From Lacrimispora celerecrescens (GTDB taxonomy: Bacteria > Bacillota > Clostridia > Lachnospirales > Lachnospiraceae), in contig NZ_JPME01000012.1 of the NCBI RefSeq assembly GCF_000732605.1, forward strand, positions 62,001-126,000: DNA of 64,000 bases, given 5' to 3'. Shown here piece after piece: positions 4,478 through 62,555 of the stretch; position 1 is the first letter of the stretch; every line of letters begins with the position of its first letter. The notes below the pieces were generated by a model. It saw only the letters and a program-made list of their open reading frames with translations. It was not told where the DNA came from and did no database searches. Both the position numbers and the translations under genes were made by a program.

Positions 4478-4497
4478 AAGGCAAATGCCATCCGTAT

Positions 4498-4550
4498 AAC
4501 AGCACAGAGGCCCGCAGGCCCAAACCTGCGGGCCTCTGTGCTGTTATCTT
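4498..4550 (+). terminator. Strong GC-rich hairpin after the NSS transporter
   Basis: Perfect 21-bp stem (4498-4518 with 4525-4545) around a 6-nt loop. The T tract is short, but the stem is the most stable one in this part of the window. Confidence 0.75.
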
Positions 4551-21126: not shown

Positions 21127-21462
21127 TGTGTAAAAAAGGGCGGAATATGCAGGGGTATCCATTTGAAGGCTTTGAAAAAGAAGTATAGACTTAATTATTG
21201 AAAGCGCGAGCTTCAAATAATTAGAAATTTTCACCAGAGTTTTAAAAAGGTTTGAGAGTTGTACCATATCAGGAGAAAAAATATCATTGAAAGCTATAAT
21301 TATAAGAATATATCTACATATATATCGAGATTTCAAATTATCTGAAAACTTAAGAATAAAATACGTTTACAAGAGGAAAAAAATGTAGTATTATCAACTA
21401 AAAATTTACTGTTACCCATTGGCACCCAAAAGCATGGGCAGGAAAGAGGAAAGGAAGAGGTT
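21127..21462 (+). promoter_or_regulatory. Long A/T-rich region before gltB with dyads and a candidate promoter
   Basis: No gene is seen in these 336 nt. An imperfect 14-bp dyad (21192-21205 with 21210-21223, TAATTATTGAAAGC / GCTTCAAATAATTA) and a second one (TTTCA-N7-TGAAA, about 21330-21346) could bind a LysR-type regulator such as GltC; this is inference. A candidate promoter is TTGAAA (21287-21292), 16 nt, TATATC (21309-21314). The last 40 nt contain one copy of a short repeat that also occurs twice near 55.6 kb. Confidence 0.4.
21425..21452 (+). repeat. Short dispersed repeat, copy A
   Basis: 28 nt with a CCCAAAAGCATGGG hairpin-like motif followed by CAGGAAAGAGGAAA. It is shared with copies B (55610-55654) and C (55663-55707) and lies directly before the gltB ribosome site. 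Confidence 0.6.
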
Positions 21463-38516: not shown

Positions 38517-38523
38517 TCGTATG

Positions 38524-38615
38524 CGCGAGCAATGAGCTGGACGAATATGCTTGCATATTCATTCGACGAATGCCGCGACAACTAAGAAAAACCCGCAAAG
38601 CGTGTTTTTCTTAGT
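38524..38615 (+). repeat. Structured intergenic element R1 (divergent copy)
   Basis: Order of parts: AGCAATGAG (38528-38536), hairpin 1 (GAATATG 38543-38549 with CATATTC 38554-38560), core word CGAATGCC (38567-38574), hairpin 2 (12 bp, 38581-38592 with 38604-38615, inner CGC/GCG). The order matches R2 and R3, but the 7-bp outer stem and the GGGC/GCCC core stem are missing. Confidence 0.5.
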
Positions 38616-38633
38616 ATGAAGAGGAGGAGCTTC

Positions 38634-49362: not shown

Positions 49363-50709
49363 ATGAATCAGAAAATATTAGTTGCCGGCAGTGGAAAAAG
49401 CGGCATTGCCGCTGTGGGACTGATCCTTAAAACAGGAGATGAAGTAATTCTTTACGACAGCAATGATGCCCTCAATAAGGATGAGCTGCTTCATCAGTTT
49501 GGAGAAGAAGGAAGGATTTCAGTTTTACTGGGAGAGCTTAAAAAGGAAGATCTTTCAGGGGTAAGCTTATGTGTCATAAGCCCCGGTATTTCATTAGAAG
49601 CCCCCTTTGTAGCTGTCCTTAAAGAAGCGGATATCCCGGTTTGGAGTGAGATTCAGCTTGCTTACCACCATGCCAAGGGAAAGCTGGCGGCAATTACGGG
49701 AACCAATGGTAAGACAACCACTACGGCCCTTATCGGGGAAATCATGAAAGCATATTATGAGCATGTGTTTGTGGTAGGCAATATTGGGGTCCCATATACA
49801 GAGGAAGCGTTAAAAACGACTGAGGATTCGGTAACAGTAGCAGAGGTCAGCAGCTTTCAGCTGGAGACGATCACCGACTTCCGTCCGGATGTGAGCGCGA
49901 TCTTAAACATAACACCAGATCACTTAGATCGTCATAAAACCATGGAATGCTACATAGAAGTAAAGGAACGAATCACATCAAACCAAAGGTCCCAGGATTT
50001 TTGTATCTTAAACTACGACGATCCTGTTTTACGTGAATTTGGAAAGACCATCAAACCCCAGGTTGTCTATTTTAGCAGCCGTCAGTTTTTAGAAGAAGGC
50101 TACTGCATGGATGGGGACAGGATTATCCGGAACCATAATGGGGAGAGGACAGAGATCGCGGACATTCACGGGGTACAGCTCTTGGGCCGTCATAACCATG
50201 AGAACATCATGGCCGCAGCCGCTGTAGCCGCTGAAATGGGAGTACCCATGGAGATCATCAGCCAGGCGGTCAGGGAGTTCAAGGCAGTAGAGCATCGGAT
50301 TGAATTTGTTGCGGAAAAGGCGGGAGTAAAATATTACAATGATTCCAAAGGAACCAACCCGGACGCAGCAATCCAGGCGATAAAAGCCATGCCAGGGCCT
50401 ACGCTGCTCATTGCAGGAGGTTATGATAAGAACTCCCAGTATGACGAGTGGATCGAATCATTTGATGGTAAGGTAAAATACATGGTACTTCTGGGCCAGA
50501 CCAGAGAAAAAATCGCCGAGTGCGCAGCCAGACATGGTTTTACAAACGTAATGTACGCGGAAGATATGCAGGAAGCCGTAAAGGTATGCGCTTCTTATGC
50601 CAATAGAGGAGATCATGTGCTCTTATCTCCAGCCTGTGCAAGCTGGGGAATGTTTAAGTGCTATGAAGAACGCGGCGAAATCTTCAAGGAATCCGTCCGA
50701 AATTTGTAA
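49363..50709 (+). CDS. murD: UDP-N-acetylmuramoylalanine-D-glutamate ligase
   Basis: Adds D-glutamate to UDP-MurNAc-L-Ala with ATP. The 448-residue protein has an N-terminal Rossmann-like domain (VAGSGKSGIAAVGL), the Mur ligase ATP loop ITGTNGKTTTTALI, NITPDHLDRH and the C-terminal DSKGTNPDAAIQAI. AGGAGAG precedes the ATG. murE and murF, often near, are absent. It is followed by the structured element R2 and ftsW. Confidence 0.96.
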   Translation: MNQKILVAGSGKSGIAAVGLILKTGDEVILYDSNDALNKDELLHQFGEEGRISVLLGELKKEDLSGVSLCVISPGISLEAPFVAVLKEADIPVWSEIQLAYHHAKGKLAAITGTNGKTTTTALIGEIMKAYYEHVFVVGNIGVPYTEEALKTTEDSVTVAEVSSFQLETITDFRPDVSAILNITPDHLDRHKTMECYIEVKERITSNQRSQDFCILNYDDPVLREFGKTIKPQVVYFSSRQFLEEGYCMDGDRIIRNHNGERTEIADIHGVQLLGRHNHENIMAAAAVAAEMGVPMEIISQAVREFKAVEHRIEFVAEKAGVKYYNDSKGTNPDAAIQAIKAMPGPTLLIAGGYDKNSQYDEWIESFDGKVKYMVLLGQTREKIAECAARHGFTNVMYAEDMQEAVKVCASYANRGDHVLLSPACASWGMFKCYEERGEIFKESVRNL

Positions 50710-50858
50710 AAGCAATGAACCATGCGGAAATATATGTGAAGTTTATGCGTGTGAGCTCGCTCACTAAGCATAAATTTTACATATATTTCTATAGGGCGAA
50801 TGCCCGTCATTCATAATTTGGCGGCGCCCTTCCGCCAAATTATGAATGCATGGTGGAT
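50709..50858 (+). repeat. Structured intergenic element R2
   Basis: Between murD and ftsW. Parts: AAAGCAATGA at about 50709-50718; outer stem ACCATGC (50719-50725) with GCATGGT (50848-50854); hairpin 1 of about 28 bp (50726-50756 with 50759-50789; GTTTATGC/GCATAAA and GTGAGC/GCTCAC near the tip); core TATAGGGCGAATGCCCGT (50790-50807) with a GGGC/GCCC stem; hairpin 2, a perfect 17-bp stem (50808-50824 with 50832-50848). The base at 50848 could belong to hairpin 2 or the outer stem. No open frame or protein match is apparent. Same plan as R3 with unrelated arm sequences. Confidence 0.8.
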
Positions 50859-50893
50859 GACATAAACGAATAAACTTGGCGAGGAGGAATAAT

Positions 50894-52045
50894 ATGGCAG
50901 AAAAAGGGCCAGTGAAGAAAAAAAACAAACCGCGCCGTTTTTACGATTACAGCCTGCTGTTTACTGTAATATTTCTGTCTGTTTTTGGTTTGGTCATGAT
51001 TTACAGCGCCAGCTCATACGCAGCCCAGCTTAAATACCATGACGCCGCTTATTTCATGATGAGGCAGGCTAAGATCGCCCTGGCAGGCTTTATTATCATG
51101 ATTGTAATATCCAAACTGGATTACCACTGGTACGCCAAATTCGCTGTATTTGCTTACATACTTTCCTATGTCTTAATGATTACCGTATCCTTAGTTGGGC
51201 GTAAAGTAAACGGTAAGAGAAGATGGCTGGGAGTGGGAAGCCTTTCTTTCCAGCCTACGGAATTTGTAAAAATTGCTCTGATTGTAATGCTTGCTGTTTT
51301 AATCGTTCAGATGGGAAGGAATATTAACACGAGAAATGGCGTGCTTTTGGTAATTGTAACAACACTCCCCATAGCTGGAATCGTAGCGGCAAATAACTTA
51401 AGCTCCGGAATCATCATCATTGGGATCGCTTTTGTCATGCTGTTTGTGGCATGTAAAAAGAAATGGCCGTTTTTTGCCTGCGGTCTTGCAGGCGTAGGAG
51501 CGCTGGCTTTTGCCGGGCCAATGGCTGCTGTTCTGGAAAAACTTAATATTCTTCATGATTACCAGCTGGGCCGTATCCTGGTATGGCTGGAGCCGGAGGC
51601 TTATCCCTCTACCGGCGGCTATCAGGTGCTTCAGGGACTTTATGCCATAGGTTCCGGCGGTCTGGTAGGCAGGGGTCTGGGAGAGAGCATACAGAAGATG
51701 GGGTTTGTACCGGAAGCACAAAACGATATGATTTTTTCCATCATCTGTGAAGAACTTGGGCTTTTTGGAGCGGTTTCCGTGATTTTGATATTTCTTTTCA
51801 TGATATACCGGTTCATGCTCATTGCAGATAATGCACCGGATCTATTTGGGGCGTTGCTTGTTGTAGGCGTTATGGGACATATTGCCATACAGGTTATCTT
51901 AAATATAGCGGTTGTAACCAATACCATACCAAATACCGGTATAACCCTTCCTTTTATTAGCTACGGAGGCACCTCAGTTCTTTTTCTGATGATGGAAATG
52001 GGCATGGTCTTAAGCGTTTCCAACCAGATAAAGCTTGAAAAATAA
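50894..52045 (+). CDS. ftsW: SEDS glycosyltransferase FtsW
   Basis: Polymerises septal peptidoglycan from lipid II together with the class B PBP. The 383-residue protein has a basic N-terminus (KKKNKPRRFYDYS), ten membrane helices, the conserved GRKVNGKRRWLGVG loop with QPTEFVKIA, and the catalytic-loop region PEAQNDMIFSIICEELG and PFISYGGTS. ATG 50894 follows GAGGAGG by 6-7 nt. Rod-type RodA is excluded by position in the dcw cluster. Confidence 0.95.
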   Translation: MAEKGPVKKKNKPRRFYDYSLLFTVIFLSVFGLVMIYSASSYAAQLKYHDAAYFMMRQAKIALAGFIIMIVISKLDYHWYAKFAVFAYILSYVLMITVSLVGRKVNGKRRWLGVGSLSFQPTEFVKIALIVMLAVLIVQMGRNINTRNGVLLVIVTTLPIAGIVAANNLSSGIIIIGIAFVMLFVACKKKWPFFACGLAGVGALAFAGPMAAVLEKLNILHDYQLGRILVWLEPEAYPSTGGYQVLQGLYAIGSGGLVGRGLGESIQKMGFVPEAQNDMIFSIICEELGLFGAVSVILIFLFMIYRFMLIADNAPDLFGALLVVGVMGHIAIQVILNIAVVTNTIPNTGITLPFISYGGTSVLFLMMEMGMVLSVSNQIKLEK

Positions 52046-55599: not shown

Positions 55600-55609
55600 G
55601 AAACATTGA

Positions 55610-55707
55610 GGGTATCCCTTTATGCCCAAAAAAGCATGGGCAGGAAAGAGGAAACACCCTGCGGGTATCCCTTTATGCCCAAAAAGCATGGGCAAGATAA
55701 ATGAAAG
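55610..55707 (+). repeat. Short dispersed repeat, copies B and C in tandem
   Basis: Copy B (55610-55654) and copy C (55663-55707) share GGGTATCCCTTTATGCCC, a run of 5-6 A, and GCATGGGCA, with a period of 53 bp. TGCCCA and TGGGCA can pair as a small hairpin. The 3' half of copy B also matches copy A before gltB. Copy C runs into the ribosome site of the next gene. Confidence 0.7.
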
Positions 55708-55717
55708 GAGTGGCAAA

Positions 55718-58821: not shown

Positions 58822-61263
58822 ATGGCAGTGATTTTAGAAGAGATAAATAAGAGGAAGGTATTTTTTGACGGCGGAACAGGAAGCCTTTTACAGGCAAATG
58901 GCCTTGAACCGGGAGAACTGCCGGAAACATGGAATGTAAAGCATCCGGATATTATTACGAAGCTTCACCGTGATTATCTGGAAGCAGGTGCGGACATCAT
59001 AAAGACAAATACCTTTGGAGCCAATGGGTTGAAATTTTATAAAGGTGCGGAGTTCGATTTAGAAGAGGTAGTGACTGCAGCATTAAAAAATGCCAGGAAT
59101 GCAGTGGAAACAGCTTCTTATCCGGCCGGAAAGAAAAAGGGTTACATTGCCCTTGATTTAGGCCCTACAGGAAAGCTTTTAAAGCCTTTAGGAGATCTGG
59201 CCTTTGAGGAGGCCTACAAGATGTTTTCCCAGGTAGTTAAAATCGGAGAACGAGAGGGAGCGGACCTGGTTCTCATAGAGACTATGAGCGACAGCTACGA
59301 GACTAAGGCGGCTGTGCTGGCTGCAAAGGAAAACTCCAGTCTTCCCGTATTCGTAACTACGATTTTCGATGAGAAAGGAAAGCTTTTAACCGGAGGAAAT
59401 GTGGAATCTACCGTTGCCCTTTTAGAAGGCCTGGGGGTTGATGCTCTGGGAATCAACTGCGGCCTGGGCCCGATTCAGATGAAGGGCATTTTAAAGGATA
59501 TCATGAAGGTGGTTTCCATACCGGTCATCGTTAATCCAAATGCAGGGCTTCCAAGAAGTGAAGGCGGTAAAACGGTATATGATATCGATGCAGCTGAGTT
59601 TGCGGCTGCCATGAAGGAAATTGCAGAGGAAGGGGCCTGTGTGATCGGCGGCTGCTGCGGAACCACGCCGGAACATATTGAGAAAACAGTGGCTCTTTGC
59701 AAAGACCTTCCTGTGAGACTGCCGGATAAGAAAAACCGCACCGTGATCTCTTCCTATGCACAGGCGGTTGTGATTGATAACGATCCAATTCTCATTGGGG
59801 AGAGGATCAATCCAACGGGGAAATCGAAATTCAAGCAGGCTCTTCGTGATCATAACCTGGAATATATTCTCCGTGAGGGAGTGGCTCAGCAGGATAATGG
59901 AGCACATGTCCTGGATGTGAATGTAGGACTTCCGGAAATTGATGAGCCATCCATGATGGCGGAAGTGATCGGGGAGCTCCAGAGCATCATCGATCTGCCT
60001 CTTCAGATCGATACCTCCAATATAGAGGCAATGGAACGGGCAATGAGGGTTTATAATGGTAAGCCTCTTATTAATTCCGTAAATGGAAAAAAAGAAGTGA
60101 TGGAAGCAATTTTTCCTCTGGTAAAACAGTACGGAGGCGTTGTGGTCGCTCTTGCCTTAGATGAAGACGGAATTCCGGAAACAGCAGATGGCAGGATTGC
60201 TGTTGCAAAGAAAATCTACGATAAAGCCGCGGAATATGGAATTGAAAAGAAAGACATTATTATAGATGCCCTTTGCATGACTGTCAGTTCTGACAGCCGG
60301 GGTGCTCTGACGACCCTTGAAACCTTAAGGCGGGTCCGGGATGAGCTTGGTGGAAGAACCATACTGGGCGTTTCCAACATTTCCTTTGGGCTCCCACAGA
60401 GAGAAATTATCAATGCCGCCTTTTTCACAATGGCCCTTCAAAACGGCCTAAGTGCGGCTATCATAAACCCCAATTCAGAAGCAATGATGCGTTCCTATTA
60501 CAGTTTCCGGACTCTTGCGGACCTGGATCCTCAGTGCAGCGGTTACATCTCAGTGTACAGCGGCCAGGTGGCTACCCTTGGTGAGACAGTGAGACAGGGA
60601 ACCTCTTCTTTATCTGGAGGCATTTCCGGAGGGGAGATGTCTCTGTCAGAAAGCATTGCCAAAGGCCTTAAGGACCGGGCATATGCCGCAGTGACAGAGC
60701 TTTTAAGGGAGCAGGAGCCTTTAACCATTATCAATGGACAAATGATCCCAGCACTGGACCGGGTAGGGAAAGGCTTTGAAAATGGAACCGTATTCCTTCC
60801 GCAGCTTCTGATGAGTGCGGAAGCGGCCAAGGCAGCCTTTGAGGTCATAAAAGAGAAGATGGCTGAAGGCGGCGTGGCACAAGAGAAAAAAGGGACGATT
60901 ATCCTGGCTACGGTCAAAGGTGATATTCACGATATCGGAAAAAATATCGTCAAGGTACTCCTGGAAAACTACGGCTATGACGTCATTGACTTAGGAAAAG
61001 ACGTACCACCGGAAAAGATCGTGGAAACCGCAGTGAAAGATGAAGTGAAGCTGGTAGGTTTAAGCGCACTCATGACCACCACCGTTCCAAGTATGGAAGA
61101 GACCATTAAGCAGCTTAGAGAGGCTGCCCCTTATGTGAAGGTAATGGTAGGAGGCGCAGTGCTTACAGAAGGGTATGCAAAGACTATTGGTGCGGATCAG
61201 TACTGTAGGGATGCTATGGCTTCTGTGAATTATGCAGAGGGAATATTTCAGGCGTTAGATTGA
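58822..61263 (+). CDS. metH: Cobalamin-dependent methionine synthase without activation domain
   Basis: Transfers the methyl group of 5-methyl-THF to homocysteine via cobalamin. The 813-residue protein has the homocysteine domain (FFDGGTGSLLQANG, zinc ligands in GINCGLGP and GGCCGTTPEH), the pterin domain (GERINPTGKSKFKQAL) and the cobalamin cap and Rossmann domain with DIHDIGKNIVKVLLENYG (the cobalt-ligating His of DxHxxG). It ends there, about 330 residues shorter than E. coli MetH; the missing activation domain is encoded just upstream. ATG 58822 has GGAGG 5 nt upstream; ATG 58810 overlaps it. Confidence 0.95.
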   Translation: MAVILEEINKRKVFFDGGTGSLLQANGLEPGELPETWNVKHPDIITKLHRDYLEAGADIIKTNTFGANGLKFYKGAEFDLEEVVTAALKNARNAVETASYPAGKKKGYIALDLGPTGKLLKPLGDLAFEEAYKMFSQVVKIGEREGADLVLIETMSDSYETKAAVLAAKENSSLPVFVTTIFDEKGKLLTGGNVESTVALLEGLGVDALGINCGLGPIQMKGILKDIMKVVSIPVIVNPNAGLPRSEGGKTVYDIDAAEFAAAMKEIAEEGACVIGGCCGTTPEHIEKTVALCKDLPVRLPDKKNRTVISSYAQAVVIDNDPILIGERINPTGKSKFKQALRDHNLEYILREGVAQQDNGAHVLDVNVGLPEIDEPSMMAEVIGELQSIIDLPLQIDTSNIEAMERAMRVYNGKPLINSVNGKKEVMEAIFPLVKQYGGVVVALALDEDGIPETADGRIAVAKKIYDKAAEYGIEKKDIIIDALCMTVSSDSRGALTTLETLRRVRDELGGRTILGVSNISFGLPQREIINAAFFTMALQNGLSAAIINPNSEAMMRSYYSFRTLADLDPQCSGYISVYSGQVATLGETVRQGTSSLSGGISGGEMSLSESIAKGLKDRAYAAVTELLREQEPLTIINGQMIPALDRVGKGFENGTVFLPQLLMSAEAAKAAFEVIKEKMAEGGVAQEKKGTIILATVKGDIHDIGKNIVKVLLENYGYDVIDLGKDVPPEKIVETAVKDEVKLVGLSALMTTTVPSMEETIKQLREAAPYVKVMVGGAVLTEGYAKTIGADQYCRDAMASVNYAEGIFQALD

Positions 61264-61287
61264 CAAAAATGGTACGAATGGTATAAT
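61260..61287 (+). promoter_or_regulatory. trpS promoter
   Basis: TTGACA (61260-61265), 16-nt spacer, TATAAT (61282-61287), overlapping the metH stop. It places element R3 in the trpS 5' leader. Confidence 0.75.
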
Positions 61288-61294
61288 ATCCACG

Positions 61295-61434
61295 AAAGCA
61301 ATGAGTAGTGCGAAACAGGGCATGAAAAGATTTTCGTTGTGCTTGCACATAAGAAAATCTTTTCATGGCTTGTTTCATAGGGCGAATGCCCGTGAGCGAA
61401 CGAATCCTACGGATTCGTTCGCTGCACTACGGAT
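61295..61434 (+). repeat. Structured intergenic element R3
   Basis: Parts: AAAGCAATGA (61295-61304); outer stem GTAGTGC (61305-61311) with GCACTAC (61424-61430); hairpin 1 of about 24 bp (61312-61335 with 61353-61376, inner GTGC/GCAC); core ATAGGGCGAATGCCCGT (61377-61393), identical to R2; hairpin 2, a perfect 13-bp stem (61395-61407 with 61411-61423). The arms share no sequence with R2. No T-box features (specifier loop, TGGNACCGCG bulge) are present, although it precedes a tRNA-synthetase gene. Confidence 0.8.
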
Positions 61435-61463
61435 TTACGATACAAAACATCTGGAGGTACAAA

Positions 61464-62555
61464 ATGGGAAAGATTATTTTAACAGGAGACCGGCCCACCG
61501 GGAAGCTCCATATCGGCCACTACGTTGGTTCATTAAAACGCAGGGTAGAGCTGCAGAATTCCGGTGAATTTGACGAGATATTCATCATGATAGCGGATGC
61601 CCAGGCTCTCACGGACAATTCCGATAATCCCGAAAAAGTCCGTCAAAATATCATTGAGGTTGCGCTGGATTACCTTTCCTGCGGTCTGGACCCGAAGAAA
61701 TGCACCCTTTTCATCCAGTCTCAGATCCCAGAGCTTACGGAACTATCCTTTTACTATATGAACCTGGTAACCGTATCCAGGCTGCAGCGGAATCCTACGG
61801 TAAAATCTGAGATCGCCATGAGAAACTTTGAAACCAGCATTCCAGTAGGCTTCTTCACCTATCCGATCAGCCAGGCAGCTGACATTACAGCGTTCCAGGC
61901 CACCACAGTGCCCGTAGGCGAGGACCAGGAGCCCATGATCGAGCAGACAAGGGAAATAGTGCGTAAGTTTAATTCTGTCTACGGCGAAGCTCTTGTAGAA
62001 CCAGAAATTCTGCTTCCTAACAATAAAGCCTGCTTACGTCTTCCAGGAACCGACGGAAAAGCCAAGATGAGTAAATCCCTTGGAAACTGCATCTATTTAT
62101 CCGATCCGGAAGATGAAGTAAAGAAAAAGGTCATGAGCATGTATACAGACCCGAACCACATCCAGGTTTCCGACCCAGGAGAGGTGGAAGGAAACACAGT
62201 GTTCACCTACCTTGATGCGTTCTGCAAAGACGAAGATTTTGAAAAGTATCTGCCAGATTATAAAAATCTTGACGAGCTTAAAGACCACTACAGGCGAGGC
62301 GGTTTAGGCGATGTAAAAGTAAAGCGGTTCTTAAACAGCATCCTTCAGGAAGAATTAGAGCCGATCCGCAGAAGAAGAAAAGAATACGAAGCCAACATTC
62401 CTTACGTATACCAGATATTAAAAGAAGGAAGCGATAAGGCAGAGGCAATGGCAGCCCGGACCCTAAAGGGCGTAAAAGAAGCCATGAAGATCAATTATTT
62501 TGATGATCTGGAGTACATTGAAGAGCAGGCAAGGAAGTATAAGAGCCAGGAATAG
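61464..62555 (+). CDS. trpS: Tryptophanyl-tRNA synthetase
   Basis: Charges tRNA-Trp. The 363-residue class I synthetase has the HIGH motif in [10 protein letters not shown] near residue 13 and KMSKS in [11 protein letters not shown]. The N-terminal [13 protein letters not shown] is that of the family. ATG 61464 has TGGAGG 6-7 nt upstream; the in-frame stretch back to 61365 runs through element R3 and is not coding. The leader carries R3 instead of a T-box. Confidence 0.95.

Follow-up and report, generated by a model that had tools for sequence, protein, structure and literature searches.

The window analysed here is a stretch of 64,000 nucleotides of the Lacrimispora celerecrescens genome, and two of its intergenic regions carry structured elements of about 150 nt (Table 1). 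The first, R2, separates murD from ftsW; it shares its first base with the end of the murD stop codon and stops short of the ftsW ribosome-binding site. The second, R3, is flanked by a gene with methyltransferase and B12-binding domains on one side and by trpS on the other.

Table 1. Coordinates of R2, R3, their parts and their neighbours in the window.
Feature	Position	Strand	Remarks
Reduced relative	38523..38633	+	21.9 bits, E 1e-4; fold z -4.0
murD (Mur ligase domains), gene upstream of R2	49363..50709	+	
R2, full cloverleaf element	50709..50858	+	Covariance-model match 50706-50854, 88.5 bits
R2 P1 outer stem, 5′ strand ACCATGC	50719..50725	+	
R2 P2, long hairpin	50727..50789	+	Tip GTGTGAGCTCGCTCACTAA; usual tip GTTGTGCTTGCACATAA
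R2 P3, GGGC-GAAT-GCCC	50794..50805	+	Among the most conserved stretches of the subfamily
R2 P4, 17-bp perfect hairpin with 7-nt loop	50808..50848	+	Arms 50808-50824 and 50832-50848
R2 P1 outer stem, 3′ strand CATGGT	50849..50854	+	
ftsW (FTSW_RODA_SPOVE), gene downstream of R2	50894..52045	+	
-35-like TTGACA upstream of trpS	61260..61265	+	Found in element-free genomes too
-10-like TATAAT directly upstream of R3	61282..61287	+	TACAAT in empty-site genomes
R3, typical copy upstream of trpS	61292..61441	+	168.7 bits
trpS (tRNA-synt_1b, classes W and Y), gene downstream of R3	61464..62555	+	

R2 and R3 follow one four-way cloverleaf plan, in which P1 closes P2, P3 and P4; they have AAAGCAATGA and ATAGGGCGAATGCCCGT in common, in the same order, and differ in most arm columns. 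A first-pass annotation of this DNA had described R2 as a 17-bp hairpin (P4), a long hairpin (P2), a GGGC/GCCC stem (P3) and an outer stem (P1), with R3 built from the same parts in the same order around the same start and core. We confirmed this observation as real and found every named part in place, although the outer stem, given as 7 bp, is 6–7 bp because G50848 would have to serve both P4 and the seventh P1 pair. The accompanying statement that none of the arm sequences match is mainly true of R2 against R3, but the outer AAA and the inner ATTTTCG..CGAAAAT of P2 are mostly common across the family. The P2 arms of R2 (50727–50748 and 50768–50789) are 91% complementary and carry a capped tip, in which the tip stem is swapped, the GU/UAA internal loop is retained and GCTCGC stands at the end. 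For 50700–50870 the minimum free energy is -76 kcal/mol, where shuffled sequences average -37.9 (z -9.5, 0/200 shuffles), and R3 gives -75.1 (z -10.1, 0/200 shuffles). These z scores, together with the family covariation described below, exclude chance hairpins. R2 is a divergent family member.

The reduced relative elsewhere in the window has a AGCAATGAGC start, a short P2 with a GCTTGC tip, a CGACGAATGCCGCG core and a long P4. At 4496–4547 there is a 23-bp perfect inverted repeat with a 6-nt spacer, which has a weak score of 16.8 bits against the P2 part of our model and is probably just a strong hairpin. Direct repeats with GGGTATCCCTTTATGCCCAAAAAGCATGGGCAGGAAAGAGGAAA, spaced 52–53 bp, occupy 55607–55709, with a third partial match at 21425; in several genomes, words resembling it also precede the M18 peptidase gene.

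Scanning the genome of origin with the core word returned 17 copies at 0–2 mismatches, all with the cloverleaf fold. At up to 3 mismatches the scan was at control level (30 matches versus 35 for the reversed word), and the 13 matches with 3 mismatches were left out; one such match, L019, looks like half a copy. A covariance model of the 17 copies, R2 and R3 included, found 34 matches in the same genome: 20 full-length sense copies, 11 antisense matches to palindromic parts of the element and three shorter ones. When 61 genomes including this one were searched, 36 had matches, among them all 25 of the genus. Eighteen of these 25 have one to four matches each, among the matches listed, and the other seven, the genome of origin included, are copy-rich, with at least 27 to 43 raw matches each, antisense counted; copy numbers and shared sites in the other genomes are lower bounds, as the best matches were listed. 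The copy-rich genomes fit a single clade as judged by ftsW, which in the six others is 96–99% identical to that of the genome of origin, against 89–91% in the rest (in G023 the match is in two pieces, 95 and 84). In a sample of 160 genomes of the bacterial family, 65 match at E<=1e-10, bearing out the suggestion that such a search would uncover a structured family with covarying arms. The exact core was also present in 32 stretches, with records titled Lachnospiraceae bacterium, Clostridium sp., Hungatella sp., Parablautia sp., Candidatus Lachnoclostridium, Candidatus Onthocola and Eubacteriales bacterium.

Several loci show local arrangements of their own. In Parablautia sp. Marseille-Q6255 (L119, 4443–5025) four similar copies stand in tandem with a 147-bp period, directly upstream of a gene resembling mutS2. 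In G011 (L239, 2001–3129) four copies, three of them low-scoring, lie within about 1.1 kb, and in G002 (L137) a subtilase-family protease gene lies between two copies 1.5 kb apart. L009 and L014 carry, downstream of P4, local tandem repeats of ~20 bp that consist of P4/P1 3′-strand sequence and look like a duplication of the element's end through hairpin slippage. A more divergent copy occupies a site common to G000, G014, G001 and G007 (L049, L235, L250, L138), upstream of an ftsE-like ABC ATPase gene; similar sequences from other genomes of the genus (L075, L077, L079 and L081) have almost identical P2 arms. The site may have become fixed long ago and may behave differently from the amplified copies.

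To score covariation we used 97 copies and one antisense match from G002, G006, G008, G013 and G014, giving 98 distinct rows. Pairing holds in 96.1% of cells, and 752 cells covary versus 196 in shuffles; sliding the partners by one column lowers the covariation score from 0.400 to about 0.07. The element is thus neither confined to R2 and R3, with 20 full-length copies in the genome of origin, nor does it lose its pairing elsewhere, both sides having changed in 41 of the 52 pairs. Outside the variable arms, the conserved stretches are AAAGCAATGAGCAGTGCG, the P2 tip CGTTGTGCTTGCACATAAG, ATAGGGCGAATGCCCGTGAGC and GCACTGCGGAC.

We compared orthologous copies with the fourfold sites of ftsW and trpS. 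At fourfold-site divergences of 0.21–0.43, P1, the tip and the P3 region diverge by 0.01–0.15 and the tail by 0.21–0.39; in the three closest pairs (fourfold 0.06–0.12) the same core parts differ by 0.01–0.06. Over all pairs compared, tail divergence is 0.07–0.39 and fourfold divergence 0.06–0.43. The core evolves more slowly than synonymous sites, and gene conversion between copies could have contributed further to its conservation. Flank clustering of the listed copies, which as best matches are biased towards well-kept ones, gave 36 clusters, or 37 sites once one double cluster was split. At least 23 of the 36 clusters hold two or more genomes and at least 21 hold three or more, and one-genome clusters are overcounted for the same reason; R2 was one of these, and three more intact orthologs of it were found on further reading. 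Mean identity is 0.87–0.97 between orthologous copies (four pairs measured) and 0.71–0.81 between paralogs, the closest paralog pair among the fetched genus copies listed being 0.95 identical (L140 and L141, at 1.00, are one copy taken twice and were not counted).

Placement was analysed in a set of 133 copies from eight genomes, 113 of them listed matches from the seven genomes other than that of origin, with mechanical ORFs taken as neighbouring genes. Among these 133 copies, 127 have a next gene in the same orientation; both flanking genes are in sense with the element in 93 and both antisense in one. Counted per flank cluster (n = 36), orientations are 21 (+,+), 13 (-,+), 2 (+,-) and 0 (-,-), and 27 loci from other genera give 16 (+,+), 7 (-,+), 2 (-,-), 1 (+,-) and one without a left gene. 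Of 37 sites, 27 have an upstream -10 hexamer matching in at least 5 of 6 positions, whereas background windows give 5.2 of 37; at the 10 others, R2 included, none of that quality is present (3/6 at best for R2). With a threshold of at least 4/6 the count rises to 33 sites, in 14 of which the hexamer begins 10 nt upstream of the first base of the model. In other genera, TGGTATAAT-like words stand to the left of the copies, and we read them as a target preference. On the sequence evidence, then, this is a multi-copy family placed in sense and associated with -10 boxes.

The conserved loops and junction and the leader position would suit a ligand- or protein-responsive switch for each downstream gene. 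Pfam scans of 30 downstream proteins from the 37 representative sites, which also took in ftsW, trpS and four other window proteins, gave a match for 28 of the 30, with unrelated functions. A metabolite regulon was rejected on this result, and since no pathway is common to the downstream genes we consider such a switch very unlikely. A family of trans-acting small RNA genes released from the leader would agree with the -10 hexamer at a preferred distance and with the classification of the related Clostridiales-1 RNA (RF01699), which Rfam types as 'Gene; sRNA' and for which the table passage of Weinberg 2010 gives RNA as probable and a cis-regulatory role as probably not. Against it, only 1 of 37 sites and 2 of 133 copies have a run of at least 5 T within 25 nt after the element, which therefore lacks a built-in terminator of this type; at 25 of 34 representative sites the distance to the start of the next co-oriented gene is 17–103 nt; and the variable arms leave little room for a common pairing target. 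We regard released small RNAs as improbable.

Comparison of genomes reveals filled and empty sites at four loci. Of 23 genomes read at trpS, 7 carry the element and 16 have an empty site (leaving aside G005, with unreadable offsets, and G010, an incomplete genome with a weak protein match only), and the empty genomes have the same promoter, TTGACA and TGGTACAAT. Among 24 genomes, the murD–ftsW site holds an intact element in 4 and truncated remnants with deletions in 3, and is empty in 17; R2 is therefore truncated in 3 of the 7 genomes that carry any part of it. The DnaB_2 and M18 loci, read in ten genomes each, are both empty in G001, G007 and G024; at DnaB_2 the copy is truncated in G013 and decayed in G011, and at M18 it is truncated in G014 and G011. 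As clean empty sites are the more numerous, these patterns indicate insertion rather than loss at the four loci. Precise excision was rejected, the losses that we read being internal deletions or decay.

The -10 box immediately 5′ of the element at trpS, DnaB_2 and M18 is present in the empty genomes too, and a promoter borne by the element is not needed at these loci, the -10 (and at trpS the -35) being already in place; elsewhere the element may bring a promoter of its own. No target duplication was seen by eye at the four loci compared, where boundaries were judged by eye and the right junction is not exactly placed; judged in this way, three empty sites are compatible with entry 3′ of a fixed word without duplication, and the R2 site does not fit such entry. 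A Y1 transposase as the present-day mobiliser is not supported, because it does not track copy number: a Y1_Tnp match occurs in 20 of the 25 genus genomes but is absent from the copy-rich G008 and G014. The enzyme may have been lost from copy-rich genomes.

The same data could describe a purely selfish miniature element whose sites and sense placement follow from the way it inserts, such as by invading the open promoter strand beside a -10 box, with no benefit to the host. Its position directly 3′ of -10 boxes that are present in empty genomes too, downstream genes without an evident common function in the Pfam scans, truncated copies at murD–ftsW, DnaB_2 and M18, and the clustered or tandem copies of L119 and L239 (G011) all agree with this. 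A core that changes more slowly than fourfold sites in orthologous copies, at least 21 of 36 flank clusters spanning three or more genomes, and a closest paralog pair of only 0.95 identity among the fetched genus copies listed speak against it. We hold this alternative to be rather unlikely.

We then considered what keeps the arms complementary. From 204 model matches 16 were dropped as antisense or lacking P1 letters (two being sense copies of L239), identical rows were removed, and eight divergent genus copies including R2 were set apart by hand, the counts being made both with and without these divergent copies (134 and 125 rows). Over all four stems, the 125 amplified-type copies have 98 G.T and 93 A.C mispairs, and all 134 genus rows have 117 and 107. 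In 35 tRNAs of the same genome the corresponding numbers are 51 and 0 among 752 pairs, a control that counts only pairs drawn by ARAGORN, so that mismatches may be left out. In the two closest genomes (666 pairs), one-sided changes comprise 9 G.T, 9 A.C and 14 others, with 5 double changes; G000 and G002 (518 pairs) give 16 G.T, 9 A.C and 8 others, with 42 double changes. Loops have also been inverted: among 18 copies common to G006 and G013, three of six changed P4 loops are the exact reverse complement, and visual inspection suggests that the ortholog tips of L232, L174 and L227 were copied or inverted. Such double changes, loop inversions and arm copying are described as footprints of replication template switching in Monttinen and Loytynoja 2022 (PMC8794818). 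Because G.T and A.C are about equally frequent in genus copies and loops have been flipped or copied between arms, the data point to repair of the palindromes by template switching more than to selection acting on individual RNA pairs.

Selection on RNA pairing alone would explain the very strong covariation. Between G013 and G014, the R2 orthologs show three double changes in their P2 arms and not one single change (gapped columns omitted; outside these columns, the P4 5′ arm reads TTC in G014 and GAA in G013 with the partner unchanged), and outside the amplified copies G.T exceeds A.C by 69 to 33 in 56 rows that are not independent. One-sided changes in seven overlapping ortholog comparisons sum to 80 G.T versus 58 A.C, and R2 itself has 3 G.T and 2 A.C in 40 counted pairs, too few to judge. 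As R2 stands outside the 125-copy count and the smaller sets lean towards G.T, we weighted this alternative up and our main reading slightly down. The lack of a G.T preference in genus copies, against 51 to 0 in tRNAs, and the loop inversions and arm-to-arm copying nevertheless make pairing selection as the sole cause unlikely. The first-pass annotation had taken retained pairing as a mark of selection, naming a palindrome-making copying process in parentheses. Here arm covariation alone does not amount to such a mark, selection being clearer in the slow core, and the parenthetical process gains support from the 117 to 107 count and the flipped or copied loops. As far as sequence comparison goes, the genus set combines a slow core with wobble-blind arms.

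Taken together, we favour, with a probability of about 0.48, the reading that the element is a leader derived from a mobile element, with a core bound by a host factor and a P2 double helix that acts in mRNA processing or protection. It would be a dispersed DNA element, formerly and perhaps still occasionally mobile, whose predicted transcript is a four-way-junction RNA. Its proposed points of entry are intergenic, in many cases immediately 3′ of the -10 box of a promoter, which would place the element at the start of the following gene's mRNA or between cistrons within it; in this leader model transcripts of trpS and others would begin within a few bases of CACGAAAGC. A host factor may bind the conserved tip (the GU/UAA loop plus CUUG) and the P3/junction region. 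The long P2 would work as a plain double helix, most likely for RNase III-type cleavage or for shielding of the mRNA 5′ end, which would leave its letters free to drift. Template switching during replication would copy arm onto arm, which would largely keep complementarity and invert loops. A bolder extension, speculative and in our view unlikely, would make the family a bacterial counterpart of SINEs: by sense entry 3′ of -10 boxes it would have given dozens of unrelated genes one cloverleaf leader, with template-switched arms and a retained protein-binding core, and hence a shared post-transcriptional control point.

Covariation is usually taken as proof of RNA selection, and the element bears on the calling of structured RNAs in that way: the genus copies are a natural case of strong covariation without wobble preference and with visible template-switch footprints. 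As a sister subfamily of Clostridiales-1 RNA that stands beside promoters, in sense, with empty sites for comparison, it also makes a role of the Clostridiales-1 type testable.

The first-pass annotation knew of no named element with this plan, and here it was mistaken: Clostridiales-1 RNA has it, although our copies fall below its curated score. Both have the same P1-P2-P3-P4 four-way junction with a long P2 capped by GCUUGC, both are multi-copy, RF01699 sometimes in tandem and in other genera of the same family and order, and one RF01699 member (L316) carries the 19-nt tip CGTTGTGCTTGCACATAAG of the element exactly. The RF01699 model matches 4 of 17 copies in the genome of origin (E 1e-5 to 1e-3), all below its gathering score of 48 (best of 17 loci, 41.2 bits), and in the window it has no match, nor does any known Rfam family at its curated cut-off. 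Nine of the 61 genomes pass the RF01699 cut-off, none of them among the 25 of the genus, two of which have sub-threshold matches; conversely, 3 of 18 RF01699 loci have a P2 that the R2 model recognises (E 1e-6 to 7e-5). The P3 of the element is short (GGGCGAAUGCCC, 4 bp GGGC/GCCC), whereas that of RF01699 is long with UGAG..CGAA motifs; its P4 is a plain hairpin without the bulged GGGAG/CGgAg motif; and RF01699 is antisense to both neighbours at 3 of 13 loci, against 1 of 133 for the element. Because P3 and P4 differ and the scores lie under the gathering score, we call the element, from its sequence, a putative sister subfamily of Clostridiales-1 RNA rather than a member. In titles and abstract openings we found no published description of this subfamily, and in table passages no role proposed for Clostridiales-1 RNA.

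The P1 strands form 6–7 bp inverted repeats near the element ends. Correia/NEMIS elements have terminal inverted repeats and insertion duplications. These Neisseria elements are small, dispersed and gene-adjacent and can bear on promoters and be cleaved by RNase III (PMC2649163). Ours, known here from its sequence, is likewise small, dispersed and beside genes, but it forms one four-way junction, is nearly always in sense and shows no duplication by eye. Elements of the IS200/IS605 type insert beside a fixed target word without duplication, and ours would resemble them if entry of that kind holds. REP/REPIN and IS200/IS605-type palindromic elements (PMC3116915, PMC2817692, PMC3733652) have in common with ours that they are dispersed palindromes; REPs are palindromes of 20–40 bp with a GTAG or CGTC tag at one end (PMC3733652), and a cloverleaf of about 150 nt exceeds that size. 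The template-switch hairpins of PMC8794818 share with the element the footprint of double changes, inverted loops and copied arms. Those hairpins lie in rRNA and microRNA genes and involve G-U or U-G pairs in 78.5% of two-step changes, whereas the genus copies of the element have longer arms and about as many G.T as A.C mispairs.
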